Assembly (NCBI GenBank): GCA_021325235.1
Contig: JAJPHN010000014.1
Location: 1 to 64,000, forward strand
Length of the DNA: 64,000 nt
Direction of reading: 5' to 3'
Origin: Terriglobia bacterium
Lineage (GTDB): Bacteria > Acidobacteriota > Terriglobia > Bryobacterales > Bryobacteraceae
The notes under the pieces: model-generated
Database searches by the model: none
What the model saw: only the letters and a program-made list of their open reading frames with translations
Told to the model about the DNA's origin: nothing
Part shown: positions 5,696 to 29,108 of the stretch, piece by piece
Position numbering within the stretch: the first letter of the stretch is position 1
Layout of the letters: every line of letters starts with the position of its first letter
Translations under genes and position numbers: made by a program

Positions 5696-5932
5696 CTAGC
5701 GCCAATCTTCTTCCTCCTCGTCTTCGCCTTCCTCTTCTTCGTCCTCATCCGCGTCGAAATCGTCGAAATCTTCGTCGTCCTCGTCTTCATCTTCTTCGGA
5801 TTCGAGCTCGACAGGATTCACGCTCGCCACGGTTAGCGAAGCTCCGCATTCATCGCAGGAGAGAACGTCGCCTTCATCGAGTTCTTCTTCCTCGACGTCG
5901 ATTGTGGCATCACATTTGGGACAAGTCACCAT
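5696..5932 (-). CDS. LysW-like zinc-ribbon protein with hyperacidic tail
   Basis: Protein of 78 residues. Residues 1-41 match the small zinc domain of LysW/ArgW amino-group carrier proteins: MVTCPKCDATIDV, then VLSCDECGASLTV and NPVELE, with paired CxxC motifs. Residues 42-78 are almost pure acid: 29 of 37 are Asp or Glu. Genuine LysW ends in EDWGE and uses the terminal Glu as the carrier site. This protein ends in EDWR, with no terminal Glu, and no lys or arg biosynthesis genes are nearby. It therefore shares the LysW fold but may not be a carrier. Its C-terminus could bind basic proteins, metals or nucleic-acid-binding partners; this is inference. Confidence 0.75.
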   Translation of the reverse strand: MVTCPKCDATIDVEEEELDEGDVLSCDECGASLTVASVNPVELESEEDEDEDDEDFDDFDADEDEEEEGEDEEEEDWR

Positions 5933-12824: not shown

Positions 12825-15656
12825 ATGCTCACCGCTACTGCAACCGTACCCGCAACTGAAGGACGCAAACTGAGGTCCTTACGAAAAGAGGAGCGCACCG
12901 GCGTGTCGTTCCCCCGTTACTTTACGACGAAACTGGAGCCGGGTGTCACCCCGTACGACCAGGTCAACTGGGAGCTTCGTACTGCGACCATTGGCAACGA
13001 CAAAGGCTCGGTGATCTTCGAGCAGCGCGATGTGGAGATTCCCGCCGAGTGGTCACAGACGGCCACCAACATTGTCGCTAGTAAATATTTTCATGGCCGT
13101 ATGGGATCGCCGGAGCGCGAGCGCAGCGTAGGACAGCTGGTGCACCGGGTGGTGGACACGATTGCCGACTGGGGCATCGAAGGCAAGTATTTCAAGAGCA
13201 AAGAAGAGGGCGAGAACTTCCGCAACGAACTTGCTCATCTGATGCTCACGCAGAAGGCGTGCTTCAATTCGCCGGTGTGGTTCAACGTGGGCGTGAAGGA
13301 ATCGCGCGGCTACGGATTCTATTTTGATGAAGCGTCGCAGACGGTGAAGAAGCTGCAGCCGGGCGAGAATCATCCGCAGTGCTCGGCATGTTTTATCAAC
13401 TCGGTGGGCGATTCGCTCGAGTCGATTCTGGACCTGGCCAAGACGGAGGGCATGCTGTTCAAGTGGGGCTCGGGAACCGGCAGCAATCTATCGGCGATTC
13501 GGGAAGAAGACGCGCATCTCTGGGGTGGCGGACGCGCTTCGGGTCCGCTGAGCTTCATGAAGGGTTTCGATGCGTTTGCGGGCGTGATCAAATCCGGCGG
13601 CAAGACGCGGCGCGCGGCGAAGATGGTGATTCTGAATGCCGATCATCCGGATATCGAGAAGTTCATCTGGTGCAAGGCAAAGGAAGAGAAGAAGGCGCAC
13701 ACGCTGATCGATTCGGGCTACGACGCGGCGCTCGATGGCGAAGCGTACACTTCGATCTTTTTCCAGAACGCGAACAACTCGGTGCGCGCGACGGACGATT
13801 TCATGCGCGCAGTGGTGGAAGACGGCGAATGGTGGACCAAGAGCGTGGTTTCCGGACAGCCGGTAAATCGTTATAAGGCGCGCGAGGTGATGCGGCAGAT
13901 CGCCGAAGCGACGCATCAATGTGGCGACCCGGGCATGCAGTTCGATACCACGATCAATCGCTGGCACACCTCGAAGAACACGGCGCGGATCAATGCTTCG
14001 AATCCGTGCTCGGAGTATATGTTCCTGGACGATTCGGCTTGCAACCTGGCATCCCTGAACCTGATGCGGTTTGTGGGGGCGGATGGCGCGTTCGATGTGG
14101 AAGCGTTCCGCCATGCGGTCGATACGGTGATCCTGGCACAGGAGATTCTGGTCGATAACGCGTCCTATCCGACGGAGAGAATCGCCAAGAACTCGCACGA
14201 TTTCCGGCCGCTCGGTCTGGGCTATGCGAATCTGGGCGCGGTGCTGATGTCGATGGGACTGCCGTATGACAGCGACAAGGGCCGGGCGTTTGCGGCGGCG
14301 ATTACGGCGGTGATGTGCGGACAGGCGTATCTGACGAGTTCGCGGATTGCCGCGGCGGTGGGACCGTGTCCCGGTTACGAGGTGAACGCCGGGCCGTTTC
14401 TCGACGTGATCCGGATGCACTGGAACGCGGTGAACGACATCGACAGCAAGTATGTGCCGCCGGCGATGTATGAAGCAGCGGAGAAGTGCTGGCGCGAGGC
14501 CTACGAGGCGGGTGCGGAGTCCGGATTCCGCAATGCGCAGGTAACGGTGCTGGCGCCGACGGGCACGATCGGCTTCATGATGGATTGCGACACGACCGGC
14601 ATTGAGCCCGATCTGGCGCTGGTGAAATACAAGAAGCTAGTGGGCGGCGGCGTGATCAAGATCGTCAACAATACGGTTCCGCAGGCGCTCATCAAGCTTG
14701 GCTACACAGCTGAACAGGCGGAGCAGATTGTGGCGCATATCGATTCCACCGGAACGATCGAAGGCGCGCCGCATCTGAAGCCGGAGCATCTGGCGGTGTT
14801 CGATTGCAGCTTCCGTCCGCAGAACGGCACGCGATCGATTCACTACATGGGCCACGTGCGCATGATGGCGGCGACGCAGCCGTTCATTTCGGGTGCGATC
14901 TCGAAGACGATCAACATGCCGGAAGAATCGACGGTGGAGGACATCATGGAGGCCTACACCGAGAGCTGGCGGCTGGGTCTCAAGGCGGTCGCAATTTACC
15001 GGGATGGTTCCAAGCGGGCGCAGCCGTTGAGCTCGGGAACAGGTAAGGGCGAGAAGAAGGGAGCTGCGGTCGTTCCCATTGCTGCTGCTGCGCCGCAGAC
15101 GGTCGAGAAGATTGTCTACCGTCCGGTGCGGAGGAAACTGCCCGATGAGCGGCAGTCGCTCACGCACAAGTTCTCGATCGGCGGACATGAGGGCTACATC
15201 ACGGTCGGCCTGTATGAAGACGGGACGCCGGGCGAAGTTTTCATCTCGATGGCGAAGGAAGGCTCGACGATCTCGGGGCTGATGGACACGCTCGCGACTT
15301 CGATCAGCTACGGCCTGCAGTACGGCGTGCCATTGAAGTTTTTTGTCGATAAGTTCAGCCACGTGCGCTTCGAGCCGAGCGGCTGGACGGGCAACAGCCA
15401 AGTGCCGTACGCGAAGTCGATCATCGATTACATTTTCCGCTGGCTGGGGAATCGCTTCCTGGGTATCACGGAGGCGAACGAAGCGGGGGAAACGCCCAAG
15501 CTGCGGCCGACCGTGCCGGATCCACAGGCGGCGCTGCCGTTTGATGCCAGTTCGGTGGGGGATGCGCCGCTTTGCTCGGAGTGCGGCAGCATGATGACGC
15601 GCAACGGTTCGTGCTACAAGTGCGAGAACTGCGGCGGGACTTCGGGATGTAGTTAA
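12825..15656 (+). CDS. nrdJ: Adenosylcobalamin-dependent (class II) ribonucleotide reductase
   Basis: Protein of 943 residues that reduces ribonucleotides to deoxyribonucleotides using vitamin B12 coenzyme. The active-site loop NPCSEYMF (Asn393, Cys395, Glu397) and N-terminal cysteine region SACFINSVGDSLES are present. PTGTIGFMMDCDTTGIEPD is the substrate-phosphate and radical region. A TSCPD-type domain follows (HKFSIGGHEGYITVGLYEDG). The C-terminal cysteine-rich tail (CSECGSMMTRNGSCYKCENC) would shuttle electrons from thioredoxin and may bind zinc. The enzyme works with or without oxygen. No other reductase class is present in the window. Confidence 0.96.
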   Translation: MLTATATVPATEGRKLRSLRKEERTGVSFPRYFTTKLEPGVTPYDQVNWELRTATIGNDKGSVIFEQRDVEIPAEWSQTATNIVASKYFHGRMGSPERERSVGQLVHRVVDTIADWGIEGKYFKSKEEGENFRNELAHLMLTQKACFNSPVWFNVGVKESRGYGFYFDEASQTVKKLQPGENHPQCSACFINSVGDSLESILDLAKTEGMLFKWGSGTGSNLSAIREEDAHLWGGGRASGPLSFMKGFDAFAGVIKSGGKTRRAAKMVILNADHPDIEKFIWCKAKEEKKAHTLIDSGYDAALDGEAYTSIFFQNANNSVRATDDFMRAVVEDGEWWTKSVVSGQPVNRYKAREVMRQIAEATHQCGDPGMQFDTTINRWHTSKNTARINASNPCSEYMFLDDSACNLASLNLMRFVGADGAFDVEAFRHAVDTVILAQEILVDNASYPTERIAKNSHDFRPLGLGYANLGAVLMSMGLPYDSDKGRAFAAAITAVMCGQAYLTSSRIAAAVGPCPGYEVNAGPFLDVIRMHWNAVNDIDSKYVPPAMYEAAEKCWREAYEAGAESGFRNAQVTVLAPTGTIGFMMDCDTTGIEPDLALVKYKKLVGGGVIKIVNNTVPQALIKLGYTAEQAEQIVAHIDSTGTIEGAPHLKPEHLAVFDCSFRPQNGTRSIHYMGHVRMMAATQPFISGAISKTINMPEESTVEDIMEAYTESWRLGLKAVAIYRDGSKRAQPLSSGTGKGEKKGAAVVPIAAAAPQTVEKIVYRPVRRKLPDERQSLTHKFSIGGHEGYITVGLYEDGTPGEVFISMAKEGSTISGLMDTLATSISYGLQYGVPLKFFVDKFSHVRFEPSGWTGNSQVPYAKSIIDYIFRWLGNRFLGITEANEAGETPKLRPTVPDPQAALPFDASSVGDAPLCSECGSMMTRNGSCYKCENCGGTSGCS

Positions 15657-15684: not shown

Positions 15685-15719
15685 AAAGGGCCGATCTTAC
15701 GATCGGCCCTTTTCGTTTT
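15685..15719. terminator. Strong intrinsic terminator, convergent nrdJ / TonB receptor
   Basis: A perfect 12-base stem (AAAGGGCCGATC, 15685-15696, with its complement at 15701-15712), a TTAC loop and a T-rich tail ending at 15719. The A-rich left flank gives a T tract on the other strand, so it can stop both genes. It begins 29 bases after the nrdJ stop and overlaps the receptor stop codon. Confidence 0.92.
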
Positions 15720-18700
15720 AGAACGAGTAGCGGAGCGAGAGCTGGAGATTGCGGGCGAGACCTGTTTTGCTGGTGACTTCTCCAAAGGTGCCGGAGGTCG
15801 GGTTCAGGTTCGGGCCGCTCCAGTTGGGATGGTTGATGAAGTTGTAGGCTTCGGCGCGGAACTCGAAGAGGTTGCGTTCATTGATGGCGAATTTCTTGAA
15901 GAGTGCGAGATTCCAGTCCTGGAAGCCGGGCTGATACACGGAATCGCGCACGCCATTCTGCAGGTTGAAGGTGCCCGCTGCCGGTTTGGTGACACTGGCC
16001 ACGAAGTACTTGGGGGAATTGGAGGTGGCGCCCAGACCGGAAGCGAAATGACCGACAATCTGAGGGGTGCCGTTCAGGACCCAGAACTGTCCCTCGGAGC
16101 CGCAGCCGAAGCTTCCTAGATCGGACGAGCTGACACCGGCGAAGTCGTTGTTGGTACCGATGCCGCAGGGCGAACCGGTCTGAAATTGAGCAACGCCGCT
16201 GATTTGCCAGCCGCCGAGCAGCTTGCCGGCAAGAGTACGCTGCGCCCGGAAGAAGGGAATCTCGTAGAGGTAGTTGATGACTACCATGTGGCGGGCATCG
16301 TATTCGGACGGCGCCCAGAGATTGCTGGTGTTGTAGGTGTCGGGCACGATATCGCGGTAATTGGAGCTGTTGTCCATGCTTTTGGAGAACGTGTAGGCGA
16401 CTGAGAACATGGATCCATTGGTGAACTGGCGGCTCCAGTTCACTTGCAGCCCGTTGTACATCGAGTTCACAACGCTTTCTTCTTCCTGAATGGCGGCGAA
16501 GCCTTTATAGGGGCGGAGCGCGTTGATGTTCACCCCGGGGTTCGCCTGCAGGGTTCCGGCGGGCGCCTGATTGATGTCGTAAACGTCCCAGCCGTGATAG
16601 CCGCGATGGCCGACGTAGGCGATGTTGAGCGTGGAATTCCAGAACAGCTGGCGCTGGAAGGCGAAGTTCCAGTTCCAGGCGACGGGTTGTTTCAGATGCG
16701 GATTCAGCCCGGTCATGGTCAAGGGCGCCTGTATGCCGCTGGCGAGTGAAGCGGCGGGATTATCGACGCGCACTTTACTGACTGTGACGAAGGGTTGGAA
16801 AGGAGAATTGCCGCCCGGAAAAACGTTATCGAGCAGCGGCATGCGGGTGACGAACTCGCCCGCTCCGGCGCGGACCACGGTCTTGTCGTTGAGCTGATAG
16901 GCGAGGCCAAGCCGCGGCTGAATCGGGTTGGAGTTGTTGATGTACGACTTGCTCAGGTTCGGTGCAAAAAGGCTGTTGCAGGATTGCCCGGCGCAGATGG
17001 GCTGAGTCGCGGCGAGCACGCGGCCCACAGCGGAATTGGGGAATTTGCTGAAGCCGGGAATCACAACGCCGTTATAAGCGTTGCCGGTGCCGAGCACAAC
17101 ATTGCCGGAGGCATTGATCGTGACGGCCTCGGCCGGATTATAGAGCGCGCCATTGAAGTAGTCGGCATTCGCCCATAGCGGGTGGTAACCGGTGATAGTG
17201 CTGATGCGCAGGCCGTAGTCAATGTGGAGCCGCGGGTTCACTTTCCAGGAGTCCTGCGCGAATTCTTCGAACATGTACCCGCGCCAGATCGTGTACGCGC
17301 GCGGACCGATCTCGGTGTAGCTGTCGGCGTATCCGAGTGCCAGGTTGGCGATGCTGACGCCCGAGGTTGCGCCATTGCCGCTGTCGGTGAAGACGAAGTT
17401 GCCGTTCTGGTTATTGCTGCCGCCGGGAACGGTAGCGACGTTGATTTGATCGCCATCGTTCTGACCGTCGTAGTCGAAGAGGAAGCCGGCTTTGAACGTG
17501 TGGTTGCCCCAGACCTTGGTGATGCTGTCGGAGGCGGTGTAGATCGGTCCGGAGGAATGGGACGGGTAAGGACCGCCGGCCAGGCTGTAGAAGTTGTCGT
17601 TCAGGCTGGCGGTTGGGATCTTGTGGGCGATGTCTTTGCCGGGGAAGATATAGGGGAAGTTGATACCGAGCGTTTCCGCGTTGAAGCCGGGTGCAGCGGT
17701 ATTTACGGGAATGTAAACATCGTCGAGACTGACGGTAGCGCGAGCCTCATTTACCAGCGTCGGGCTGACGGTCCAGATCCAGGCGAGGGTATTTGACTGG
17801 TTAGGGCGGTTGAAATATTTCGGCGTCAGTCCGGAGCCCTGATCGAAGGGCTGATATTCGTTGTAGGCGAGATCGCTCTTGCGGAACTCGATGTGGTGAT
17901 TGTCCGTGGGGAGAATGTCGAAGTTTAGGTTCTCTTTGCGCTGATTATAGGGGTGGGCGGCCTGCGCAATCCAGTTCTGGGTGCCGCTGAGATAGCCGGG
18001 AGTAGGCGTCGGATACGCATTCAGAATAGCCATTCCATTCGGGCTCAGGAAATTGGCGGGAATGATATTGCCGGGAATCGGCGCGCAGGTGGAGGCGCCG
18101 ACTTTAGGACAGGTGCCCGGGAAGTAGAGCTGATGGGTTCCGCTGTACCACGGGTTAGCGGAGAGTAATTCGCTGAAATTGCCTTGGCGCATGAGCAGAG
18201 TGGGAACGGCCTGTGTCTGGGTATCGGTGGAACGCTGCTTGAGCCAGTCTTCGGCGACAAACCAGAAGAAGCGGTTGCGGAATTTCTCCCACTTTCCGGG
18301 GATGGCGACCGGTCCGCCAATAGCGAATCCGAAATTGTTGTAGCGATACGGCGAGGCGAAGTTGGTCGACTTACTCAGATTGCGGCCCCAGGTATTGGCG
18401 TTCATGTCCGAGTTCTGGAAGTACTCGTAGAGACTGCCGTGAAAATCGGTAGTACCGCTTTTGGTGACCACGCGTATCTGGCCGCCGGACGCGCGCCCGT
18501 ATTCGGCCTGATAATCGGCTGTGAGGACCTGAATTTCCTGAGTGGAGTCGACGTTGCCGACACCGATCACGGCGCCATTGGCGCGTGTGCGCAGAGCGGG
18601 GGCGCCGTCAACGTAGACCATGGTGTCCCAGGAGCGCGCGCCGTTGATATTGAACGGCTGTCCGGCCGGGCCCAGGCCTTGTTTATCGCCCAGGGTGGAA

Positions 18701-19221
18701 CTACTGCGAACGCCGGCCAGCATTTGCGCGGAGTAAATGGGGCTGCGGCCGTTGAGCTCCTGATCCTGAATCTGGCGGCCGGTGACTTCGCTCTGCACTG
18801 CGCCCGATTCCGTCTGGAGCACGGCCGCGGTGGCCGTGACTTCGACAGTTTCAGTCGGCTGGCCGACGGCCAGATTGGCATCGAGCGCGATGGTCGAGTT
18901 CGCCTCGAGTTTGTTGTGTGTGCTGGTGAACTTTTTGAAGCCCGCCACTTCCGCGGTCATGGTGTAGTAACCGGGAAGCAGATTGGTGACGGTGTAGTGT
19001 CCCTGGGTATCGCTGGTGACGGAGTGCTCCTCGTGAGTGGCCTCGCTGGTGATGGTCACCTTGGCATTGGGCACGACGGCACCGCTGGGATCGTGCACGA
19101 ATCCCGTGATCGTACCGGCATCGGACTGAGCGTAGAGTTTCGGTGATTGAATTGAAAAAAGCAACGCGAGCGCGGCGATTGGAGCCAAAAATCGCGCCGC
19201 CATAAACGGCAACCTGGCCAT
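15718..19221 (-). CDS. TonB-dependent receptor with carboxypeptidase-regulatory N-terminal domain
   Basis: Outer-membrane receptor of 1167 residues. In order: signal peptide (residues 1-31); a CarboxypepD_reg beta-sandwich with TITGFVHDPSGAVVPNAKVT and YTVTNLLPGYY; a plug with GRQIQDQELNGRSPIYSA and DKQGLGPAGQPFNINGARSW; and a long beta barrel ending NLQLSLRYSF, with the terminal aromatic needed for BAM assembly. This architecture is the expanded acidobacterial Oar-like group. Substrates are probably plant or microbial oligosaccharides, but none is shown by sequence. The start is preceded by AGGAGGG 8 bases upstream. It is monocistronic, and no glycosidase neighbour defines a polysaccharide locus. 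Confidence 0.92.
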   Translation of the reverse strand: MARLPFMAARFLAPIAALALLFSIQSPKLYAQSDAGTITGFVHDPSGAVVPNAKVTITSEATHEEHSVTSDTQGHYTVTNLLPGYYTMTAEVAGFKKFTSTHNKLEANSTIALDANLAVGQPTETVEVTATAAVLQTESGAVQSEVTGRQIQDQELNGRSPIYSAQMLAGVRSSSTLGDKQGLGPAGQPFNINGARSWDTMVYVDGAPALRTRANGAVIGVGNVDSTQEIQVLTADYQAEYGRASGGQIRVVTKSGTTDFHGSLYEYFQNSDMNANTWGRNLSKSTNFASPYRYNNFGFAIGGPVAIPGKWEKFRNRFFWFVAEDWLKQRSTDTQTQAVPTLLMRQGNFSELLSANPWYSGTHQLYFPGTCPKVGASTCAPIPGNIIPANFLSPNGMAILNAYPTPTPGYLSGTQNWIAQAAHPYNQRKENLNFDILPTDNHHIEFRKSDLAYNEYQPFDQGSGLTPKYFNRPNQSNTLAWIWTVSPTLVNEARATVSLDDVYIPVNTAAPGFNAETLGINFPYIFPGKDIAHKIPTASLNDNFYSLAGGPYPSHSSGPIYTASDSITKVWGNHTFKAGFLFDYDGQNDGDQINVATVPGGSNNQNGNFVFTDSGNGATSGVSIANLALGYADSYTEIGPRAYTIWRGYMFEEFAQDSWKVNPRLHIDYGLRISTITGYHPLWANADYFNGALYNPAEAVTINASGNVVLGTGNAYNGVVIPGFSKFPNSAVGRVLAATQPICAGQSCNSLFAPNLSKSYINNSNPIQPRLGLAYQLNDKTVVRAGAGEFVTRMPLLDNVFPGGNSPFQPFVTVSKVRVDNPAASLASGIQAPLTMTGLNPHLKQPVAWNWNFAFQRQLFWNSTLNIAYVGHRGYHGWDVYDINQAPAGTLQANPGVNINALRPYKGFAAIQEEESVVNSMYNGLQVNWSRQFTNGSMFSVAYTFSKSMDNSSNYRDIVPDTYNTSNLWAPSEYDARHMVVINYLYEIPFFRAQRTLAGKLLGGWQISGVAQFQTGSPCGIGTNNDFAGVSSSDLGSFGCGSEGQFWVLNGTPQIVGHFASGLGATSNSPKYFVASVTKPAAGTFNLQNGVRDSVYQPGFQDWNLALFKKFAINERNLFEFRAEAYNFINHPNWSGPNLNPTSGTFGEVTSKTGLARNLQLSLRYSF

Positions 19222-19407: not shown

Positions 19408-20118
19408 ATGCGGCGCGAATACCATAACTGGTACACGGACCGGCTCGGCCGGAACATGGAATTGCTTGTTTTTGGCCACGCCGGAACTCCGGTGCTGGTC
19501 TATCCGACTTCGCGCGGACGATTTTTTGAGTATGAGAACTCGGGCATGATCGGAGCGCTGGCGGGCAAGATCGACGCCGGCGCGCTAAGGGTTTTTTGCG
19601 TGGACAGTTTCGACAGCGAAAGCTGGTACAACCGGTCGATTCATCCGCACGAGCGCGTTCGCCGGCAGATTGCCTACGAAGACTATGTGCTGTACGAAGT
19701 GGTGCCGTTAATGAAGCGGATGAGCGGGAGCGAGCAGATCACCACCACGGGTTGCAGTCTGGGCGCGTATCATGCATTTAACTTCGCGATGCGGCATCCG
19801 GATCTGGTGAACGCAACGATTTGCATGAGCGGCTCGTTCGATATGAAATCGTTCATGGACGGATATTACGACAACGACTTTTACTTTAACAATCCGGTGG
19901 ATTATCTGCCAAATATCAGCGATCCGTGGTTTCTCGACCGGTACCGCGCGATGCGAATTGTGCTCGGGGTGGGCGACTGGGACATCTGTCTCGGGGAAAA
20001 TTTCAGGCTGGCGGACATTTTGGGGCGGCGAGGAATTCCGCACTGGCTCGATGTGTGGACGGGAGGCGAGCGGCATGATTGGCCGCTGTGGCAGCGTATG
20101 GCGGTAAAATTCTTTTGA
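19408..20118 (+). CDS. Alpha/beta-hydrolase esterase, first gene of amide-ligase operon
   Basis: Putative esterase of 236 residues. The nucleophile elbow is TTGCSLGAYHA (G-C-S-L-G), with a likely acid in GVGDWDICL and His in ERHDWPLW. It has no signal peptide, so it acts in the cytoplasm. The fold is the esterase-D type that cleaves small esters or thioesters. Only 17 bases separate it from the RimK-like gene, and five genes follow each other with gaps of 41 bases or less. It may hydrolyse an activated or esterified intermediate of the product made by the ligases; this is inference. Confidence 0.85.
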   Translation: MRREYHNWYTDRLGRNMELLVFGHAGTPVLVYPTSRGRFFEYENSGMIGALAGKIDAGALRVFCVDSFDSESWYNRSIHPHERVRRQIAYEDYVLYEVVPLMKRMSGSEQITTTGCSLGAYHAFNFAMRHPDLVNATICMSGSFDMKSFMDGYYDNDFYFNNPVDYLPNISDPWFLDRYRAMRIVLGVGDWDICLGENFRLADILGRRGIPHWLDVWTGGERHDWPLWQRMAVKFF

Positions 20119-20135
20119 TCGGAGGCGCGGCAACC

Positions 20136-21086
20136 GTGCACAAAATCGGAGTTCTGTACGGGATGGAAAATACGTTTCCTCCGGCGCTGGTGGATCGAAT
20201 CAACAGCAAGCGCGCGCCGGGGGTGGTGGCGGAGCATATTCGCATCGGCGGAATCAGGATGGCAGAGCCGAGCGGGTATCGGGTCATTATCGACCGCATT
20301 TCGCACGACATCGAGTTCTATCGCGCGTACCTGAAAAACGCTGTGCTGGGCGGCACGATCGTGATCAACAATCCGTTCTGGTGGAGCGCGGACGACAAGT
20401 TTTTCAATTACGCGCTGGCGAGCCGGATTGGTGTGGCGGTGCCGAACACGGTGGTCTTGCCGACCAAAGAGCATCCGCCGGGTACGACCGAGCAGTCGAT
20501 GCGCAATCTGCAATTTCCGCTGAACTGGGACGAGATCTTCAGTTACATTAGGTTCCCCGCGTTTCTGAAGCCATTCAGCGGGGGCGGCTGGAAGAATGTT
20601 TACAAAGTACATTCGCCGGAGGAATTTTTCGCCGCTTACAACGAAACCGGGACGATCTGCATGACGCTGCAATCGGCGGTGGATTTCGACGAATATTTCC
20701 GCTGTTACGTAGTCGGGCGCGAGAAAGTGCGAGTGATGAAGTACGATCCGCGCCAGCCACATCATTTGCGCTATGTGCGTGACGGGCAGGCCAGTTCGCA
20801 TGAACTGTACGAGCGCGTGGTGCGCGATTGCCTGACGCTCTGCCGGGCCCTTGGCTACGACTTCAATACCGTGGAATTCGCGGTTGAAAACGGGATTCCT
20901 TACGCGATTGATTTTTTGAATCCTGCACCTGATGCGGATATTCACTCAGTCGGCGAGGAGAATTTCGAATGGGTGGTGAACAACGTAGCCGATTTCGCGA
21001 TTCATAAGGCATTGAGCGACGAGCAGTCCGAGGCCGATCTCCACTGGAGCCGGTTCTTGCGAGGGGCCGCCGCACGGGCTTCGTAG
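20136..21086 (+). CDS. RimK-like ATP-grasp ligase
   Basis: About 316 residues from a GTG at 20136, chosen because GGAGG precedes it by 10 bases; an in-frame start at 20079 would lie inside the esterase gene. The ATP-grasp core is visible as FPAFLKPFSGGGWKNVYKV (lysine and glycine loop), TLQSAVDFDEYFRCYVVG, and the magnesium-binding end GYDFNTVEFAVENGIPYAID followed by DFLNPAPD. ATP-grasp enzymes join a carboxylate to an amine, thiol or hydroxyl through an acyl phosphate. Substrates are unknown. The GCS2-type ligase next to it makes a two-step peptide-like synthesis plausible. Confidence 0.85.
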   Translation: MHKIGVLYGMENTFPPALVDRINSKRAPGVVAEHIRIGGIRMAEPSGYRVIIDRISHDIEFYRAYLKNAVLGGTIVINNPFWWSADDKFFNYALASRIGVAVPNTVVLPTKEHPPGTTEQSMRNLQFPLNWDEIFSYIRFPAFLKPFSGGGWKNVYKVHSPEEFFAAYNETGTICMTLQSAVDFDEYFRCYVVGREKVRVMKYDPRQPHHLRYVRDGQASSHELYERVVRDCLTLCRALGYDFNTVEFAVENGIPYAIDFLNPAPDADIHSVGEENFEWVVNNVADFAIHKALSDEQSEADLHWSRFLRGAAARAS

Positions 21087-21126
21087 CAGCTGTCAATTGC
21101 GTGCGCTGATTGCGAGAGGAGAACCG

Positions 21127-22260
21127 ATGAGACCCAGTTTCACGCTCGGCATCGAAGAAGAGTATCAGGTGATTGATCCGGATACGCGCGATCTCCGCTC
21201 GCATATCGAGTCACAAATTATTGCGCAAGGCAAGACGCTGCTCAAGGAAGCGGTGAAGGCCGAGATGCACCAGTCCGTTGTGGAGGTGGGCACGGGCATC
21301 TGCCAGAACATCAAGGATGCGGGCCACGAATTGAAATCACTGCGCGCGCATATCGTGGAGCTGGCGCGCAAGAATCGCTTTTGCCTGGCGGCTGCGGGTA
21401 CGCACCCGTTCGCGGACTGGCGCAAGCAGGATATTTATCCTGACGAGCGGTATCAGATCATCGTCGAGGATCTGAAGATGGTAGCGCGGGCCAATCTGAT
21501 CTTCGGACTGCACGTGCACGTTGGCATAGAAGATCAGGAAACGGCGATTCATCTCATGAACGCCGCGCGCTATTTCCTGCCGCATATCCTTGCGCTTTCG
21601 AGTAATTCGCCGTTCTGGCTGGGTATGGACACGGGGCTCCGGAGTTATCGCTGCAAAGTATTCGATAAGTTCCCGCGCACGAACATTCCGGATACTTTTG
21701 CGAGCTATGGCGAGTACGACCGTTTCGTGAAACTGCTGATCAAGACGCATTGCATTGACAACGCGAAGAAGATCTGGTGGGATATTCGGCCGCACCCGCA
21801 CTTTCCTACACTGGAGGTGCGGATCTGCGACGTACCGATGCGCGCGGACGAGACGATTGCGATTACCGCTCTCATTCAGGCGACGATGTTGAAGTTATGG
21901 AAGCTGCACTCGAAGAATCAGAGTTTTCGTCTCTATCCACGGGCGCTGATCATGGAAAACAAATGGCGTGCGGCGCGCTACGGCATCGACGGAAAGATGA
22001 TTGACTTCGGGCAGGAGACTGAGGTCCCGGTGCGGGACTTGATTCTGGAATATCTGGAGCTGATCGACGATGTGGTCGACGAACTCGGCTCGCGCGAGGA
22101 GATCAATTACATCCATCGCATTCTGGAAGAAGGCACCGGGGCGGATCGCCAGCTGCGGATTTTTCAGGAAACGGGAGATTTGACGAAAGTAGTGGACTAT
22201 ATCGTGTGTGAAACAGAGGCGGGGCTCACTTGCGAAATGGCGGGAGCCGGGGCAGCTTGA
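21127..22260 (+). CDS. GCS2/YbdK-type carboxylate-amine ligase
   Basis: About 377 residues from ATG 21127, behind GAGAGGAG. It belongs to the glutamate-cysteine ligase 2 family: TLGIEEEYQVIDPDTRDLRS at the N-terminus, ATP/metal site FGLHVHVGIEDQETA, SSNSPFWLGMDTGLRSYR, and WWDIRPHPHFPTLEVRICDV. YbdK homologues have weak gamma-glutamylcysteine ligase activity in E. coli, but the true substrates of most members are unknown. An in-frame start at 21097 lacks a ribosome site. The gene overlaps the next one at its stop codon, indicating coupling. Confidence 0.92.
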   Translation: MRPSFTLGIEEEYQVIDPDTRDLRSHIESQIIAQGKTLLKEAVKAEMHQSVVEVGTGICQNIKDAGHELKSLRAHIVELARKNRFCLAAAGTHPFADWRKQDIYPDERYQIIVEDLKMVARANLIFGLHVHVGIEDQETAIHLMNAARYFLPHILALSSNSPFWLGMDTGLRSYRCKVFDKFPRTNIPDTFASYGEYDRFVKLLIKTHCIDNAKKIWWDIRPHPHFPTLEVRICDVPMRADETIAITALIQATMLKLWKLHSKNQSFRLYPRALIMENKWRAARYGIDGKMIDFGQETEVPVRDLILEYLELIDDVVDELGSREEINYIHRILEEGTGADRQLRIFQETGDLTKVVDYIVCETEAGLTCEMAGAGAA

Positions 22261-23261
22261 CGCGGCAGTACGACCCCGAGCTGAAGCCGGGTGCACACAA
22301 CGCAGTTTGTGTTTGCCTGAACGTCCAGCCCTCGGAAAAAGTGACGCTCATAACGGACCGGGTATGCGCGGAGATCGCTGCCAGCCTGATGGATGAACTC
22401 GACGCGTGCGGGTGCCGTTACCGGACGTTTGTGCTCGAGGATCTGGCGCCGCGGCCGCTCGTTGACATGCCGGAAGTCGTGCTCGAAGATCTTGCGTCGA
22501 GCGACGTGAGCATCTTCGCGGTACACGCACAGCAGAATGAGCTGCGCACGCGCATGCAGATGTGCGAAGTGGTGAACCGGCACAAGATCCGGCACGCGCA
22601 CATGGTGAATATCGAGAAGAAGATCATGCTGCAAGGAATGCGCGCCGATTTCGACCGGGTGGACGAATTGACGCTGCGGGTGATGAATGTTGTGAAGAGC
22701 GCGAGATGGATCCGCGCCACCACGCCTGCTGGAACCGACATTCGCACCGAGCTTACGCCCGACTATAAATGGATCAAGACGAGCGGCATCATCAGCCGAG
22801 AGAAGTGGGGCAATCTACCGGGCGGCGAAACGTTCACATCGCCACTTGAAGTGAACGGCACGTTTGTTGTGGATGGCGTGGTGGGCGATTATCTGTGCGC
22901 GAAATACGGCGATCTGAAGTCAACTCCGCTGACGCTGCGTGTCGAGAATAACCGGCTGATCGAAGCGCGCAGCGAGAATCAGCAACTGGCGGCGGAGTTC
23001 TGGGAATATACGCATCGCGATGCGAACAGCGACCGCGTCGGCGAGTTTGCCATCGGAACGAATCTGGCATGTAAACACATCGTGGGGAATATCCTGCAGG
23101 ACGAGAAGATGCCGGGTATTCACATGGCGTTCGGTGATCCGTACGGCTCGCACACGGGCGCGCCCTGGACCTCGACAACGCACATAGACGTGGTGGGCCG
23201 CGATTTCGATATCTGGGCCGACGACACGCAGATCATGCGCGGCGGCGAGTTTCTCGTTTAG
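22257..23261 (+). CDS. M29-type (aminopeptidase T-like) metallopeptidase
   Basis: About 334 residues. The C-terminal half carries the M29 pattern: WGNLPGGETFTSPLEVNGT, GEFAIGTNLACK, HMAFGDPYGSH and HIDVVGRD, which hold the Glu, His and Asp ligands of the two metal ions. M29 enzymes cleave N-terminal residues of small peptides. In this operon it may trim, recycle or confer specificity on an amide product. The start is uncertain: TTG at 22257 overlaps the previous stop as TTGA and follows GGGAG; another TTG at 22230 lies in frame upstream. The N-terminal ~90 residues are less typical of the family. Confidence 0.8.
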   Translation: MTRQYDPELKPGAHNAVCVCLNVQPSEKVTLITDRVCAEIAASLMDELDACGCRYRTFVLEDLAPRPLVDMPEVVLEDLASSDVSIFAVHAQQNELRTRMQMCEVVNRHKIRHAHMVNIEKKIMLQGMRADFDRVDELTLRVMNVVKSARWIRATTPAGTDIRTELTPDYKWIKTSGIISREKWGNLPGGETFTSPLEVNGTFVVDGVVGDYLCAKYGDLKSTPLTLRVENNRLIEARSENQQLAAEFWEYTHRDANSDRVGEFAIGTNLACKHIVGNILQDEKMPGIHMAFGDPYGSHTGAPWTSTTHIDVVGRDFDIWADDTQIMRGGEFLV

Positions 23262-23263
23262 CC

Positions 23264-24448
23264 GTGATCCCGGAACTCCGGCACGAATTCAATCGACAGT
23301 GGCGGCCGGAACTCTATTCGGAATTTCTGCGCCGTGCCGATGGGGTTGCCGGCAGGCACGTGGAATTTCGACTGTCGGAGACGCCGGTTTTCTTACCTTT
23401 CGAACTGGTGGAGAAAATGATCCGGTACGGGCGGGAGCTTTGCGATCAGCTCACGGGAAACACTACGTATCTGGAAGCGGCCCGCGCGCAGATTCCAGCA
23501 CGATTCCGGGTACCGAACGAAGCCGCAGCGCCGCTGTTTGTGCAGGCTGACTTCGGGCTGGTGGAGAGTGCGGCCGGTCGGTACGAACCGAAGCTGGTCG
23601 AGATTCAGGGTTTCCCGTCGCTGTATGCCTTTCAGCCGGCGCTGGCGCGCACGTATGCGGAAACGTACCACTTAGACCCGAAGCTGACGAGTTATCTGAA
23701 CGGGCTCGATGAATCTGCGTATACGAGACTTCTGGAGCGCGCCATACTCAACGGGCACGCGCCCGAGCACGTTGCGCTGCTCGAGATCGATCCGTACGAG
23801 CAAAAAACGGCAGCCGATTTCGTTTTGACGCAGAAGCTTCTCGGGATTCGCATCGCCGATATTCGTCAGCTCGAAAAGCGCGGACGCAAGCTGTACCTTG
23901 ACGGCGTGGAAGTCAGGCGCATTTACAATCGCGTGATTGCGGATGAGCTCGTCCGGAAGAATATCAGAGCGAATTTTGAATTTAGGGACGACCTTCATGT
24001 GGAGTGGGCCGGCGATCCGAACTGGTTCTTTCTGCTGAGCAAGTTTTCGTTACCGTGGTTCCGGCATGAGTGTGTGCCGGAGACGTTCTTCCTCGATTCG
24101 GCGGCAGAGATTCCGGCGGATCTCGAGAACTACGTTCTAAAGCCGCTGTATTCGTTCGCGGGATTAGGTGTGAAGATTGCGCCGACAGCGGACGATCTCG
24201 CGGGAATTCCGGGAGAAGAGCGGCACAATTTCATCCTGCAGCGCAAGATGAACTTTGCAGCGACGATCGAAACGCCGAGCGGACGCACGAAGGCGGAGAT
24301 CCGCGTCATGTACATTCATGACGGTTCACAATTGCAGCCGGTCACGACGATTATCCGCACGGGACGCGGAAAGATGATGGGCGTGGATTTCAACAAGAAT
24401 CTGGACTGGGTGGGCGCGTCGGCCGGATTCGTAACGAAGCGGGCGTAA
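23264..24448 (+). CDS. Atypical ATP-grasp-like protein, unknown function
   Basis: About 394 residues from a GTG 2 bases after the peptidase stop. The N-terminal ~250 residues are unfamiliar (EFRLSETPVFLPFELVEKM, FGLVESAAGRYEPKLVEIQG, LLEIDPYEQKTAADFVL). The C-terminal ~150 residues look like an ATP-grasp core: ENYVLKPLYSFAGLGVKI (lysine plus glycine loop), FILQRKMNF, AEIRVMYIHDGSQLQP and GRGKMMGVDFNKN. If so, it would be the second ATP-grasp and third amide-bond enzyme of this operon. Family assignment is by motif only. It is the last gene before pgm, which starts 30 bases later. Confidence 0.6.
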   Translation: MIPELRHEFNRQWRPELYSEFLRRADGVAGRHVEFRLSETPVFLPFELVEKMIRYGRELCDQLTGNTTYLEAARAQIPARFRVPNEAAAPLFVQADFGLVESAAGRYEPKLVEIQGFPSLYAFQPALARTYAETYHLDPKLTSYLNGLDESAYTRLLERAILNGHAPEHVALLEIDPYEQKTAADFVLTQKLLGIRIADIRQLEKRGRKLYLDGVEVRRIYNRVIADELVRKNIRANFEFRDDLHVEWAGDPNWFFLLSKFSLPWFRHECVPETFFLDSAAEIPADLENYVLKPLYSFAGLGVKIAPTADDLAGIPGEERHNFILQRKMNFAATIETPSGRTKAEIRVMYIHDGSQLQPVTTIIRTGRGKMMGVDFNKNLDWVGASAGFVTKRA

Positions 24449-24478: not shown

Positions 24479-26140
24479 ATGCCGATTGATCCACGCGCCG
24501 GAAAGCCGGCCGATCCCGTACAACTGGTCAACATTCCGCGTCTTGTCGCGAGCTATTACACGATCAAGCCTGATCCCGTCGAAGCGACGCAGCGTGTAGC
24601 GTTCGGAACGTCGGGCCATCGCGGCTCGTCGTTCCACGCGGGCTTCAATGAGAACCATATTCTGGCGATTACGCAGGCGATCTGCGAGTACCGCAAGCAG
24701 CAGGGCACGACCGGCCCGCTGTTTCTCGCGCTCGATACGCACGCGCTTTCGGAACCCGCATTTCTGAGCGCGCTCGAAGTGCTCGCGGCCAATGAAGTGG
24801 ATACGCGCATCGACGCCGCGGGCGGCTATACGCCGACGCCGGCGCTCTCGTACGCGATTCTGAGCTATAACCACAACCGCAAGGATGCGCTGGCCGATGG
24901 CATCGTGATCACGCCTTCGCACAATCCACCCGAGGATGGCGGCTTCAAATACAATCCGCCTTCCGGCGGACCAGCCGATACAACAGCGACGAAGTGGATC
25001 GAGAATTACGCCAACGATCTGCTGAGGAATCATCTTGCAGGCGTTCGCCGCGTTCCGGCCGAACGCGCGCTGCGTGCGGCTACTACGAAGCGCTTCGATT
25101 ATGTGACGCATTACGTCGACGGACTGGCGAGCGTGATCGATTTCGATGCGATCCGGCATTCGGGGCTGAAGTTTGGCGTTGATCCGCTGGGCGGCGCGGG
25201 CGTGGCGTACTGGCCGCGCATTGGCGAGCGCTACAAGCTGAACCTTACGGTGGTGAACAGCGACGTCGATCCCACCTTTCGCTTCATGAGCGTGGATTGG
25301 GACGGCAAAATTCGCATGGATTGCTCTTCGCCGTACGCCATGGCCGGGCTGATTGCGATGAAGGATCGCTTCGATATCGCGTTCGCATGCGATACCGATC
25401 ATGACCGGCATGGTATTGTGACGCGCAGCGTTGGGCTGCTGAATCCGAATCACTATCTGGCGGTTGCGATCGATTATCTGTTCCGCAACCGACCCGAATG
25501 GCGGCCCGATGCGGGTGTGGGCAAGACGCTTGTTTCGAGCAGCATGATCGATCGCGTGGCGGCGGATCTCGGACGGCGGCTGGATGAAGTCCCGGTGGGG
25601 TTCAAATGGTTTGTCGATGGGCTGCTGAATGGCTCGCTGGGTTTCGGTGGAGAGGAGAGCGCGGGCGCTTCGTTTCTGAAACGCGATGGAGGGGCGTGGA
25701 GTACGGATAAAGACGGACTGATTCTTGGCCTGCTCTCGGCGGAGATTACGGCGAAAATCGGCAAAGACCCGGGTGTTCGCTATGGCGAACTGACAGAGAA
25801 GTTTGGCGCGCCTGTTTACGAGCGCATCGACGCACCGGCGACGCCCGAAGAGAAGGCGATTCTGCAGAAGCTTTCGCCCGACCAGGTTTCGGCGAAAGAA
25901 CTTGCGGGCGAAAAGATCGAAGCGATGCTCACCAAGGCGCCCGCTAACAACGCGCCGATCGGCGGATTGAAAGTGGTGACCAAGAACGGGTGGTTCGCGG
26001 CGCGGCCTTCGGGGACTGAGAACGTCTACAAGATCTATGCCGAAAGCTTTCTTGGCAAGGAGCACCTGAAGCGCATTCAGGAAGAAACGCGCGCATTGAT
26101 TGCGAAGACGTTTGAGAATGCGAACGCGGCGCGGGTGTGA
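24479..26140 (+). CDS. pgm: Phosphoglucomutase (alpha-D-glucose phosphate-specific)
   Basis: Protein of 553 residues interconverting glucose 1-phosphate and glucose 6-phosphate. It has the E. coli Pgm-type motifs: [11 protein letters not shown] at the N-terminus, phosphoserine loop [20 protein letters not shown] (Ser147), metal site [10 protein letters not shown], sugar-binding [10 protein letters not shown] and the phosphate-binding [12 protein letters not shown] at the end. Length matches the ~546-residue bacterial enzyme. It follows the amide-ligase operon by 30 bases and may share its transcript, but its role in central metabolism does not require it to be part of that system. Confidence 0.95.
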
Positions 26141-26536
26141 TCACCATATCACTCTGATATCGCGATGCAGCTTGAAACTGCTATCCGCGGTGATAACTGG
26201 AAGCCCTTCCGCGGCAGCAGTCGCGATCAGCAGGCGATCGAAGGGGTCGCGATGACCCGCAACCGCGACATTCTGCAGTGCCCATAAATGATCGGTGCGT
26301 ATGGGGAGCACTCGTACTTGTAGAAGGTCGAGGCCTTCAGCGATCTCGCGTTGCGTGGTGTTCAGTTTCCCGGCCTGAATTTTCAGCAGGAGTTCCCAGA
26401 CGGTGACGGCGCTCATCTGTACAGCGGTTAAGTCGCTCGCGAGCAGCCCGCGTGCCCGGCGCGAGAGTTTCTCCGGCGAATACAGTGCCCAGAGAAACAC
26501 ATGCGCGTCGAGCAGAGCGCGGTCAATACTTGCCAT
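26141..26536 (-). CDS. PIN-domain toxin (VapC-like)
   Basis: Ribonuclease-type toxin of 131 residues. PIN-domain acidic residues are seen in LLDAHVFLWAL (Asp), SAVTVWELLLK (Glu), HRDPFDRLLIATA (two Asp) and VITADSSF (Asp). This is the COG3744-like branch with a DPFDR motif. Such toxins cleave tRNA or rRNA when the antitoxin is lost. The start overlaps the antitoxin gene by 14 bases, the usual order antitoxin then toxin. The stop abuts the pgm stop on the other strand. Confidence 0.9.
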   Translation of the reverse strand: MASIDRALLDAHVFLWALYSPEKLSRRARGLLASDLTAVQMSAVTVWELLLKIQAGKLNTTQREIAEGLDLLQVRVLPIRTDHLWALQNVAVAGHRDPFDRLLIATAAAEGLPVITADSSFKLHRDIRVIW

Positions 26537-26771
26537 CGATGAACGCTTCGGCCTCTTCGTCGCTCATGGGCTTCCACCAGTCCGGATCTACCTCAACCCG
26601 TTTGCCTGCGAATGCGCCGAGCTTCGGAGCTGTTCTGGCCGTCTGGCGCGTAGGCACCAGATCGGCGACCGGCTTGCCGTGACGGCAAATCGTGATCCGC
26701 TCGCCTGCTTCCACTTCCTGCAGCAGCTGCGTCAGAGTATTTTTTGCCTCGGCGACGTTAAGATTCTTCAT
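26523..26771 (-). CDS. Phd/YefM-type antitoxin
   Basis: Protein of 82 residues. The N-terminal Phd/YefM fold (NVAEAKNTLTQLLQEVEAGE, ITICRHGKPVADLVP) binds DNA as a dimer. The C-terminal acidic, flexible tail (WWKPMSDEEAEAFIDGKY) is the typical toxin-neutralising segment. It forms the first gene of the toxin-antitoxin pair. Its ATG sits directly against a palindrome that also contains the -10 box, so autorepression is strongly suggested. Confidence 0.9.
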   Translation of the reverse strand: MKNLNVAEAKNTLTQLLQEVEAGERITICRHGKPVADLVPTRQTARTAPKLGAFAGKRVEVDPDWWKPMSDEEAEAFIDGKY

Positions 26772-28323: not shown

Positions 28324-28418
28324 GTCTTTCTGGCGATCGCATGCGGGAGCCGAGCCACAGTTTCGGCGTTACCTGCAAGGAGCCAGTCTCCTGATCATCA
28401 CCATCCATGGAGGATATT

Positions 28419-29108
28419 TTGTTTACTTCTCTTCTCAAGAAAGCGTCGGCGGCTCTGCTGGGCCTGGCCGGCGCGGGCATGCTTTGCGCGGGAACGAGCG
28501 CTCCGCAAACCACATTTACCGGGTCCGTCACACTGACCAGCAATCAGTTTGACAACTACTTTGTCTACGATGCCAACGCCGGCAGTCTCAGCGGCATCAA
28601 AGGAGTCGGGATCACAAATCCTTTTACGGGGCAGTCCAATTTTGTCCCTGCAGGCACGTTTGGCGTGAGCGAAACCGTTCCGCAGTACATCTCGAGCGGT
28701 GTTGCAACCGCAATCGGGCTGTACTCCCCCAACGGGGTGAGTGTAGCTGTGAACCAGAGCGTGTATAACGCCGCGCTCGGAACCGAGACCTGGAACCAGG
28801 TGTTTGCCGGAACCCAGGAGAGCACGATCGTGACGGCGCTCACCAACGGCAATCAAAGCGCACTGCTGTCGTTTCTGAACCAATATTCAAGCGACTTCAT
28901 CAGCTTCAACTCGAATAACACGGCGCCGATCCAGGGCGGTATCCTGCACTTTTCGACGGCTGCAGCCGGCGGCTCGCTGACGTTCTCGAATATTACGGCG
29001 GTGGGTGCTCCTCCGGTTTCGAGCACACCCGAACCTTCCACGTCGCTGCTGTTGGGGGCTGGTCTTAGCGTGGCTGGGCTCATCACACGTAAGCTGCGGA
29101 AAGCGTAG
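28419..29108 (+). CDS. PEP-CTERM sorting domain protein
   Basis: Secreted protein of about 230 residues. A signal peptide (LFTSLLKKASAALLGLAGAG) is followed by a Thr/Asn/Gly-rich beta-type region. The PEP-CTERM tail is STPEPSTS, a hydrophobic helix (LLLGAGLSVAGLI) and TRKLRKA. TTG at 28419 is preferred because GGAGG lies 5 bases upstream; that GGAGG overlaps the in-frame ATG at 28407, which has no ribosome site of its own. It is the second exosortase substrate in the window, and again no exosortase is nearby. Function of the mature part is unknown. Confidence 0.82.
   Translation: MFTSLLKKASAALLGLAGAGMLCAGTSAPQTTFTGSVTLTSNQFDNYFVYDANAGSLSGIKGVGITNPFTGQSNFVPAGTFGVSETVPQYISSGVATAIGLYSPNGVSVAVNQSVYNAALGTETWNQVFAGTQESTIVTALTNGNQSALLSFLNQYSSDFISFNSNNTAPIQGGILHFSTAAAGGSLTFSNITAVGAPPVSSTPEPSTSLLLGAGLSVAGLITRKLRKA

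Follow-up and report, generated by a model that had tools for sequence, protein, structure and literature searches.

A compact acidobacterial operon of carboxylate–amine ligases and hydrolases, one variant of a modular system that may build a small amide-linked metabolite

Gene content and layout of the operon

A 64,000-nucleotide stretch from a Terriglobia bacterium (contig JAJPHN010000014.1, positions 1 to 64,000; referred to as the window) contains a compact operon at positions 19408 to 24448, in which three distinct types of ATP-dependent carboxylate–amine ligase, as told apart by family or fold, are encoded together with an esterase and a metallopeptidase. Sequence families and predicted models suggest, with moderate confidence, that the operon specifies a pathway independent of nonribosomal peptide synthetases to a small amide-linked metabolite, an oligo- or pseudopeptide that would probably be gamma-glutamyl-based. 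The five-gene set is one variant, that with GRB plus M29, of a modular system. The genes of the operon, and the gene that follows it, are listed below.

19408 to 20118, + strand: EST, a 236-aa alpha/beta hydrolase of the esterase family
20136 to 21086, + strand: GRA, a 316-aa ATP-grasp ligase with a predicted RimK/ArgX/LysX-like fold; GTG start preceded by GGAGG
21127 to 22260, + strand: GCS, a 377-aa GCS2/YbdK-type carboxylate–amine ligase
22257 to 23261, + strand: M29, a 334-aa short M29-family metallopeptidase; TTG start, overlapping the end of GCS by 4 bases
23264 to 24448, + strand: GRB, a 394-aa ATP-grasp ligase with a predicted circularly permuted glutathione synthetase/YgiC-type fold; GTG start
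24479 to 26140, + strand: pgm, phosphoglucomutase (TIGR01132, 919.9 bits against a cut-off of 778)

Calling of open reading frames (ORFs) placed the first five genes on one strand with spacings of 17, 40, −4 and 2 bases, and so recovered the tight cluster of adjacent genes that had been described in an earlier reading of the DNA without database searches (the sequence-only reading). The enzyme classes proposed there were likewise borne out for all five genes by Pfam and NCBIfam matches plus the predicted folds of GRA and GRB. A promoter and terminator scan found no more sites than in shuffled sequences. The source assembly comprises 5.03 Mb in 60 contigs and is 95.7% complete.

Three ligases of different families

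GCS matched the GCS2 family (PF04107) with an expect value (E) of 3e-63 (214 bits against a cut-off of 21), and its closest solved relative was YbdK (1r8g, 1.6e-56). It also passed the curated cut-off of NF010039 (PRK13515 carboxylate–amine ligase; 548.4 bits, cut-off 371), the model of the PRK13515/YbdK family, whose NCBIfam name states no substrate. By contrast, it failed the equivalog cut-offs for gamma-glutamylcysteine synthetases (gshA_cyano, 74.1 of 249.05 bits; NF010043, 373.1 of 409; EgtA, 10.8 of 370.8). A search with PF08886 returned no match, and its controls gave none either. A GCS–GRB fusion, suspected from a long open frame in one related locus (L093), was discarded because no ORF there matched two query proteins.

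The sequence matches of GRA to ATP-grasp models were all below threshold, with rimK_fam (TIGR00768) at 21.5 bits against a cut-off of 143.4, and its likeness to the RimK family is one of fold only. By way of its AlphaFold2 model (predicted local distance difference test score, pLDDT, 84.2), GRA shares a fold with RimK and LysX/ArgX at Z-scores of 22 to 23 (RimK, 23.1 over 260 residues; ArgX, 22.2; LysX, 22.0; 253–265 residues aligned). The motifs KP..GGGW and NT.E.AV..G.P.AIDF.N are invariant in nine sequences. Membership in the R2K clade was rejected (Pfam R2K_2, E of 0.082, under the cut-off), and the accessible part of the R2K paper (PMC4431377) mentions no such operon. The GRA profile has one match in its own genome, and the nearest relatives, in metagenome-assembled genomes of Acidobacteriaceae (80% identity) and Bryobacteraceae (79%), place the genome in the Acidobacteriota and probably in the class Terriglobia. 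Plasmid searches with GRA and with GRB gave no match. A more distant GRA-like ATP-grasp of 414–428 aa, followed by a protein of 741–1040 aa, was seen in two loci (L153 and L154); the L154 copy has no Pfam or NCBIfam match.

No Pfam family matched GRB at E ≤ 1, and the only NCBIfam match was PRK06849 at 0.096. Its AlphaFold2 model (pLDDT 91.5) nevertheless retrieved human glutathione synthetase (GSS; 1.3e-16) and YgiC (1.7e-12) with Foldseek, at 11–17% identity over 19 significant rows, and through this predicted model the Z-scores were 26.4 for YgiC (344 residues), 25.1 for human GSS (369 residues) and 24.3 for glutathionylspermidine synthetase (GspS). As modelled, GRB is a full-length circularly permuted ATP-grasp fold of the YgiC/YjfC, glutathione synthetase and glutathionylspermidine synthetase type. 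The sequence-only reading had named the protein at 23264 as an ATP-grasp; structure prediction upholds the fold, but Pfam and NCBIfam profiles assign it to no family. YgiC/YjfC, GspS, eukaryotic glutathione synthetase and fungal Cp1B share the fold over its full length (Z 22–26), and GRB differs from this group in its 11–17% identity, its want of a Pfam match and its lack of an amidase domain. In PMC12568646, Cp1B, which belongs to the E-64 pathway and has this fold, is described as coupling a diacid with an amino acid, and YgiC and YjfC are termed peptidylpolyamine synthetases. The five window proteins gave no alpha-E, NTN-hydrolase or GS-like Pfam match, unlike known circularly permuted ATP-grasp systems.

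Recurrence of the genes and exchange of the second ATP-grasp

To follow the genes beyond the window, a scan with the GRA profile was carried out on one genome per species and returned at least 580 related stretches, of which the best 80, a set biased to near relatives, are the named loci; many of their contigs are short, and the home-made gene caller ignores genes below about 70 aa. By title, these best 80 comprise 57 Acidobacteriota, 13 Ignavibacteriota, 7 Bacteroidota, 2 Chlorobiota and 1 Cloacimonadota, and parts or all of the operon are found in these five phyla. Where enough flank was available, 15 of 44 named loci have the full order EST-GRA-GCS-M29-GRB, EST lies within 2 kb upstream of GRA in 36 of 66 and GCS within 3 kb downstream in 40 of 51, and M29 and GRB lie within 5 kb and 6 kb of GRA in 34 and 32 of 51, respectively. 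The order is identical in an Ignavibacteriales locus (L112), and Bryocella elongata DSM 22489 (L073) contains all five genes. The genes that the sequence-only reading had treated as one unit thus occur together in relatives and in other phyla.

A second sample consisted of 149 genomes of the phylum, including that of the window, in which counts refer to strong matches. GRA was retained at ≥290 bits, which kept 40 of the 52 genomes with E ≤ 0.001 (four dropped at 154–167 bits and eight at ≤24 bits). The corresponding limits were ≥480 bits for GCS (41 of 66 kept), ≥340 for M29 (10 of 35), ≥200 for EST (40 of 75) and ≥250 for GRB (16 of 17). For a CP_ATPgrasp_2-type protein, described below, ≥400 bits kept 21 of 29 genomes with a match at 1e-20, the eight dropped belonging to one family and none having GRA; for a GATase-like protein 10 of 11 were kept, a 46-bit fragment being dropped and a partial match of 126 bits (G055) included. 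GRA was thus found in 40 genomes, 31 of them with GCS, and all 16 genomes with GRB and all 21 with the CP_ATPgrasp_2-type protein have GRA as well. Of the 31 genomes with both GRA and GCS, 20 have the two genes on one strand and no more than 3 kb apart, which is more than chance. All GRB genomes have GCS and EST except G098 (no GCS) and G055 (no EST), draft genomes in which genes may be missing.

The CP_ATPgrasp_2-type protein, of about 450 residues, occurs in genomes without GRB, where it is encoded between GRA and GCS (L117–L123); it adjoins GRA in L126, L128, L129 and L132. Its scores against CP_ATPgrasp_2 (PF14403) straddle the cut-off of 32 (29.8, 33.8, 35.0 and 19.0), and it is homologous to GRB (hhalign 95.3%, 347 columns), so that lineages lacking GRB have a relative of it, of the kind known from CP_ATPgrasp_2 systems, next to GRA and GCS. 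Fourteen of the 40 GRA genomes have GRB only, 19 the CP_ATPgrasp_2-type protein only, 2 both and 5 neither; either is present in 35 of 40.

The variant with GRB and M29 was found in eight sampled genomes, seven of them the window's own or of the same class, and in further loci of Ignavibacteriota (L096, L107 and L112) and Bacteroidota (L088). The pairwise distances are correlated between the five families (0.81–0.90), which mainly reflects shared descent. A PGM1_C-type ligase is added in L019, L128 and L146, where the GATase-like protein and GRA or GCS also occur; in L019 (genome G107) the GATase-like gene and this ligase adjoin the operon. The L128 copy is nearest to BesA, a glutamate ligase, at 158.9 bits against a cut-off of 750, and no BesA/PGM1-type peptide ligase is present in the window operon.

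Among the neighbors of the 80 named loci, the commonest families are a second esterase (19 loci) and an aldo/keto reductase (12). The latter lies just past M29 in L063 (5035–5994) and similar loci such as L070. In Bryobacter, an RraA-like gene (L037, 10951–11682) separates GRA from GCS. In two genomes of one family, a MatE-family exporter, possibly an exporter of the product, is encoded directly beside GRB (L029, 1663–3114; L030, 10218–11612).

Two unrelated predicted hydrolases that alternate

M29 matched Peptidase_M29 (PF02073) at 5.8e-14 (52.2 bits against a cut-off of 27), over residues 152–299 only. The best solved relative was the aminopeptidase AmpS (1zjc, 2.3e-7), and a NicX-like dioxygenase, a less probable identity for the protein, was matched more weakly (0.0079). 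Six residues, Glu263, Glu283, His289, Tyr296, His309 and Asp311, are invariant in five sequences. The alignment with AmpS makes the first three candidate metal ligands, and the last three are presumably candidate metal ligands as well, as in M29 structures.

The position that M29 holds in the window, between GCS and GRB, is taken in L027, L028 and L091 by the GATase-like gene. Only the L091 protein has a Pfam GATase match, and it is more distant from the other copies (92% over 131 columns); the motifs CH[ST]FG and NHHPE, whose roles are putative, are kept in the copies of L027, L028, L128 and L146. M29 and the GATase-like protein were each found in 10 genomes, all with GRA, and no genome of the 149 has both, also when matches at E ≤ 0.001 are counted. 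One of the 16 GRB genomes has neither, and the other 15 have one or the other but not both (8 M29; 7 GATase-like, one by a partial match). This exclusion gave Fisher values of 0.0014 within GRB genomes and 0.043 within GRA genomes, kinship being ignored in both, and two genomes of a single family (G119 and G145) differ in which of the two they have. The replacement of one hydrolase by an unrelated one argues that the reaction of M29 or the GATase-like protein belongs to the pathway and is not general peptide turnover.

EST, a broad esterase family

EST scored above the Pfam cut-offs for Abhydrolase_1 (1.5e-7) and Esterase (1.9e-6). The closest solved relative by sequence is 5vol, a putative esterase, and a weak match to S-formylglutathione hydrolase (7yvt, 6.8e-5) stands among those to other esterases. 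Ser117, Asp192 and His223 are invariant in an alignment of seven sequences, that of the window included, and form a candidate catalytic triad.

The idea that EST is a strict partner of an ATP-grasp was abandoned: it is found in 36 of 40 GRA genomes, yet within 3 kb of GRA in only 18 of these 36. Twenty further regions, most of them around EST copies that are not near GRA, were inspected for relatives of GRA, GRB, the CP_ATPgrasp_2-type protein, the PGM1-type ligase and a Peptoclostridium ATP-grasp, with other ATP-grasp families left out, and 19 had none of these within three genes on each side; the exception (L176) had been picked as a GRA locus. On a Peptoclostridium plasmid, EST adjoins an ATP-grasp that is not GRA-like (hhalign 6.2%). 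No ATP-grasp is annotated near EST on a Thiodictyon plasmid, and none was recognized by eye among ORFs of ≥180 aa near EST on a Rhizobium plasmid, which was read without a family scan. EST alone is therefore weak evidence for the pathway.

A second esterase of the PF00756 type (EST2) is present in 21 of 136 examined loci, a set in which several come from the same genomes, some contain GCS only and many have cut flanks. It is often divergent just upstream of EST-GRA (for example, L104, 7721–8569, − strand), and in L019 it matches enterochelin esterase, among others, below threshold. EST2 was considered as a replacement for EST and rejected: of the 61 named loci with 2.5 kb of upstream sequence, 9 have both esterases, 3 have EST2 only and 22 have neither.

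A proposed modular pathway

GCS2 and ATP-grasp ligases convert a carboxylate to an acyl phosphate, to which an amine is then joined; among enzymes with the fold of GRB, the partners so joined are gamma-glutamylcysteine and glycine, peptides and polyamines, or, in Cp1B, a diacid and an amino acid. By analogy, GCS would activate a glutamate-type carboxylate with ATP and couple it to an amine, GRA would add a further amino acid to a carboxylate in the manner of RimK or LysX, and GRB would attach an amino acid or amine as a terminal cap, so that a short amide chain would be assembled sequentially. EST might act on an ester or thioester bond in a substrate, in an intermediate or in an adduct. An amide bond would be hydrolyzed by M29, or in other lineages by the GATase-like protein, and the product, which may be a cofactor-like or stress metabolite, thereby trimmed or recycled. 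The role of EST is the least supported part of this scheme because its family is broad and often sited elsewhere.

More tentatively, and at somewhat less than even confidence, the system can be seen as a modular pathway, widespread in the Acidobacteriota and the Bacteroidota-Ignavibacteriota-Chlorobiota, to a new intracellular product, either a pseudopeptide or a gamma-glutamyl cofactor, and composed of a fixed RimK-fold ligase, usually GCS2, one of two homologous circularly permuted ATP-grasps, one of two unrelated amide hydrolases and an esterase. Under that broader proposal, because the distributions of M29 and the GATase-like protein are complementary, the hydrolytic step would be real and have one substrate, and evolution would have solved it twice. 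The enzyme types are all known; what is new is that the set is modular. No paper describing this gene combination was found among open-licence papers, a search that did not cover Iyer et al. 2009, a survey of amidoligase neighborhoods and circularly permuted ATP-grasp systems that may show parts of the set.

Judged by the presence of GRA, 40 of the 149 genomes sampled from this major soil phylum, roughly one in four, would make a peptide-like metabolite, as would relatives in other phyla, provided that the operon yields a single compound. The bond and the substrate concerned are constrained by the alternation between metallopeptidase and Cys-type hydrolase and by that between two ATP-grasp clades, and the question is thereby amenable to testing. 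Like Cp1B before them, the ligases would merit consideration as biocatalysts for amide synthesis.

Several observations weigh against a single pathway of this kind. The set is not obligatory, as 24 of the 40 GRA genomes have no GRB, 9 no GCS and 30 no M29, and GCS occurs without GRA in 10 genomes. Of the 16 genomes that have both GRB and GRA, only 7 place the two within 3 kb of each other, and EST belongs to a broad family that is often encoded elsewhere. A clustering of neighbors in the 80 named loci found no widespread tailoring enzyme or transporter, and the counts from the 149 genomes ignore kinship. A mechanism on a carrier protein is also possible, given the LysW-like matches described below.

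Alternative explanations

The main rival is that the operon builds a peptide tag on a protein or carrier, with GRA acting like RimK or LysX on a protein C terminus, the other ligases extending or building the tag and M29 or the GATase-like protein removing it. The solved folds nearest to GRA fit this idea, as ribosomal protein S6 is the substrate of RimK and the carrier LysW that of ArgX/LysX, and a ligase with an alternating hydrolase would suit conjugation and release. The window also encodes a LysW-like acidic zinc-ribbon protein (5696–5932, − strand; 78 aa), the only lysW-model match in its genome, and 30 of 40 GRA genomes have such a match at E ≤ 0.001. However, GRA scores far below the rimK_fam cut-off, and the LysW-like protein reaches 36.5 bits against a cut-off of 53.2, lies 13.5 kb from the operon on the opposite strand and ends in EEDWR, in contrast to the EDWGE of LysW. 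Matches to lysW were obtained in 59 of the 149 genomes (17 over the cut-off), among them 29 of the 109 without GRA, including all five of the same class that lack it (G007, G036, G061, G073 and G121), and in all 15 genomes comprising the window's own and its class, with or without GRA. Because they occur regardless of GRA, the link of the LysW-like protein to the operon is not specific. A LysW-dependent lysine/arginine-type pathway would need LysW over the cut-off beside the ligase; here it is below the cut-off and distant. Furthermore, the GRB relatives of known function act on small molecules, and small ORFs (30–80 aa) within 3 kb of the operon form no family present in more than 10 of 80 loci. 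Tagging or carrier-bound assembly is regarded as unlikely. A cluster for graspetides or other ribosomally synthesized and post-translationally modified peptides would need a precursor gene; the gaps between the five genes are 40 bases or fewer, and the survey of small ORFs reached 3 kb.

A special case of the amide-metabolite pathway would be a compatible solute with its own recycling peptidase. The ligases and dedicated peptidase in one operon resemble the N-acetylglutaminylglutamine amide system, whose operon encodes asparagine-synthetase-like, GNAT/ATP-grasp and M42 proteins. None of the five proteins matched the NCBIfam models of that system at E ≤ 1, and none of its families appeared among the NCBIfam matches of the scanned window proteins, the rest of the genome not having been searched. 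A solute of this type is a decidedly improbable product.

Alternatively, EST-GRA and GCS-hydrolase-GRB could be two unrelated modules with different products that are merely adjacent. Several kb separate them in L039 and L043, some genomes have them at a long distance or on different contigs, and the ten genomes with GCS and no GRA would agree with separate modules. Nevertheless, strong matches to GRB, the CP_ATPgrasp_2-type protein, M29 and the GATase-like protein never occur without GRA, and GRA and GCS are neighbors in 20 genomes. Two unrelated modules are quite unlikely.

A glutathione-like low-mass thiol, with EST hydrolyzing S-acyl adducts as S-formylglutathione hydrolase does, is a further special case and a very unlikely one: the pairing of GCS2 with a glutathione-synthetase-fold enzyme parallels glutathione assembly and EST has its weak match to 7yvt, but GCS falls under the gamma-glutamylcysteine synthetase cut-offs, 33 scanned neighbor proteins include no glyoxalase or thiol-dependent dehydrogenase (one general aldehyde dehydrogenase lies beside EST in L130), and the genome encodes the bacillithiol enzyme BshC (402.8 bits, cut-off 265.8), which is matched at E ≤ 0.001 in 38 of 40 GRA genomes and over the cut-off in 32. 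Since bacillithiol's BshC is present, a glutathione-like thiol is unlikely to be needed, and the operon product is probably not a main-thiol substitute for glutathione. The general proposal of the sequence-only reading, a ribosome-independent amide-bond route with a hydrolase, is supported, but its suggestion of a thiol gained no positive evidence.

Neighboring genes in the window

pgm begins 30 bases past GRB, and the suggestion that it may lie on the same transcript holds in so far as this proximity could allow co-transcription here; it is not, however, a conserved member of the operon. A homologue was found in only 1 of the 136 loci (L035), 3.4 kb downstream, and pgm was rejected as part of the pathway. 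Its adjacency is probably local, and a pgm-linked sugar pathway is unlikely.

Further features of the window are as follows.

12825 to 15656, + strand: class II, vitamin B12-dependent ribonucleotide reductase
15718 to 19221, − strand, divergent from the operon: 1167-aa outer-membrane barrel that carries a TonB plug and a carboxypeptidase regulatory-like domain
26141 to 26771, − strand: pair of PIN-domain toxin and Phd/YefM antitoxin, directly past pgm on the opposite strand
28407 to 29108, + strand: PEP-CTERM sorting-motif protein, adjoining an opposite-strand fumarase gene

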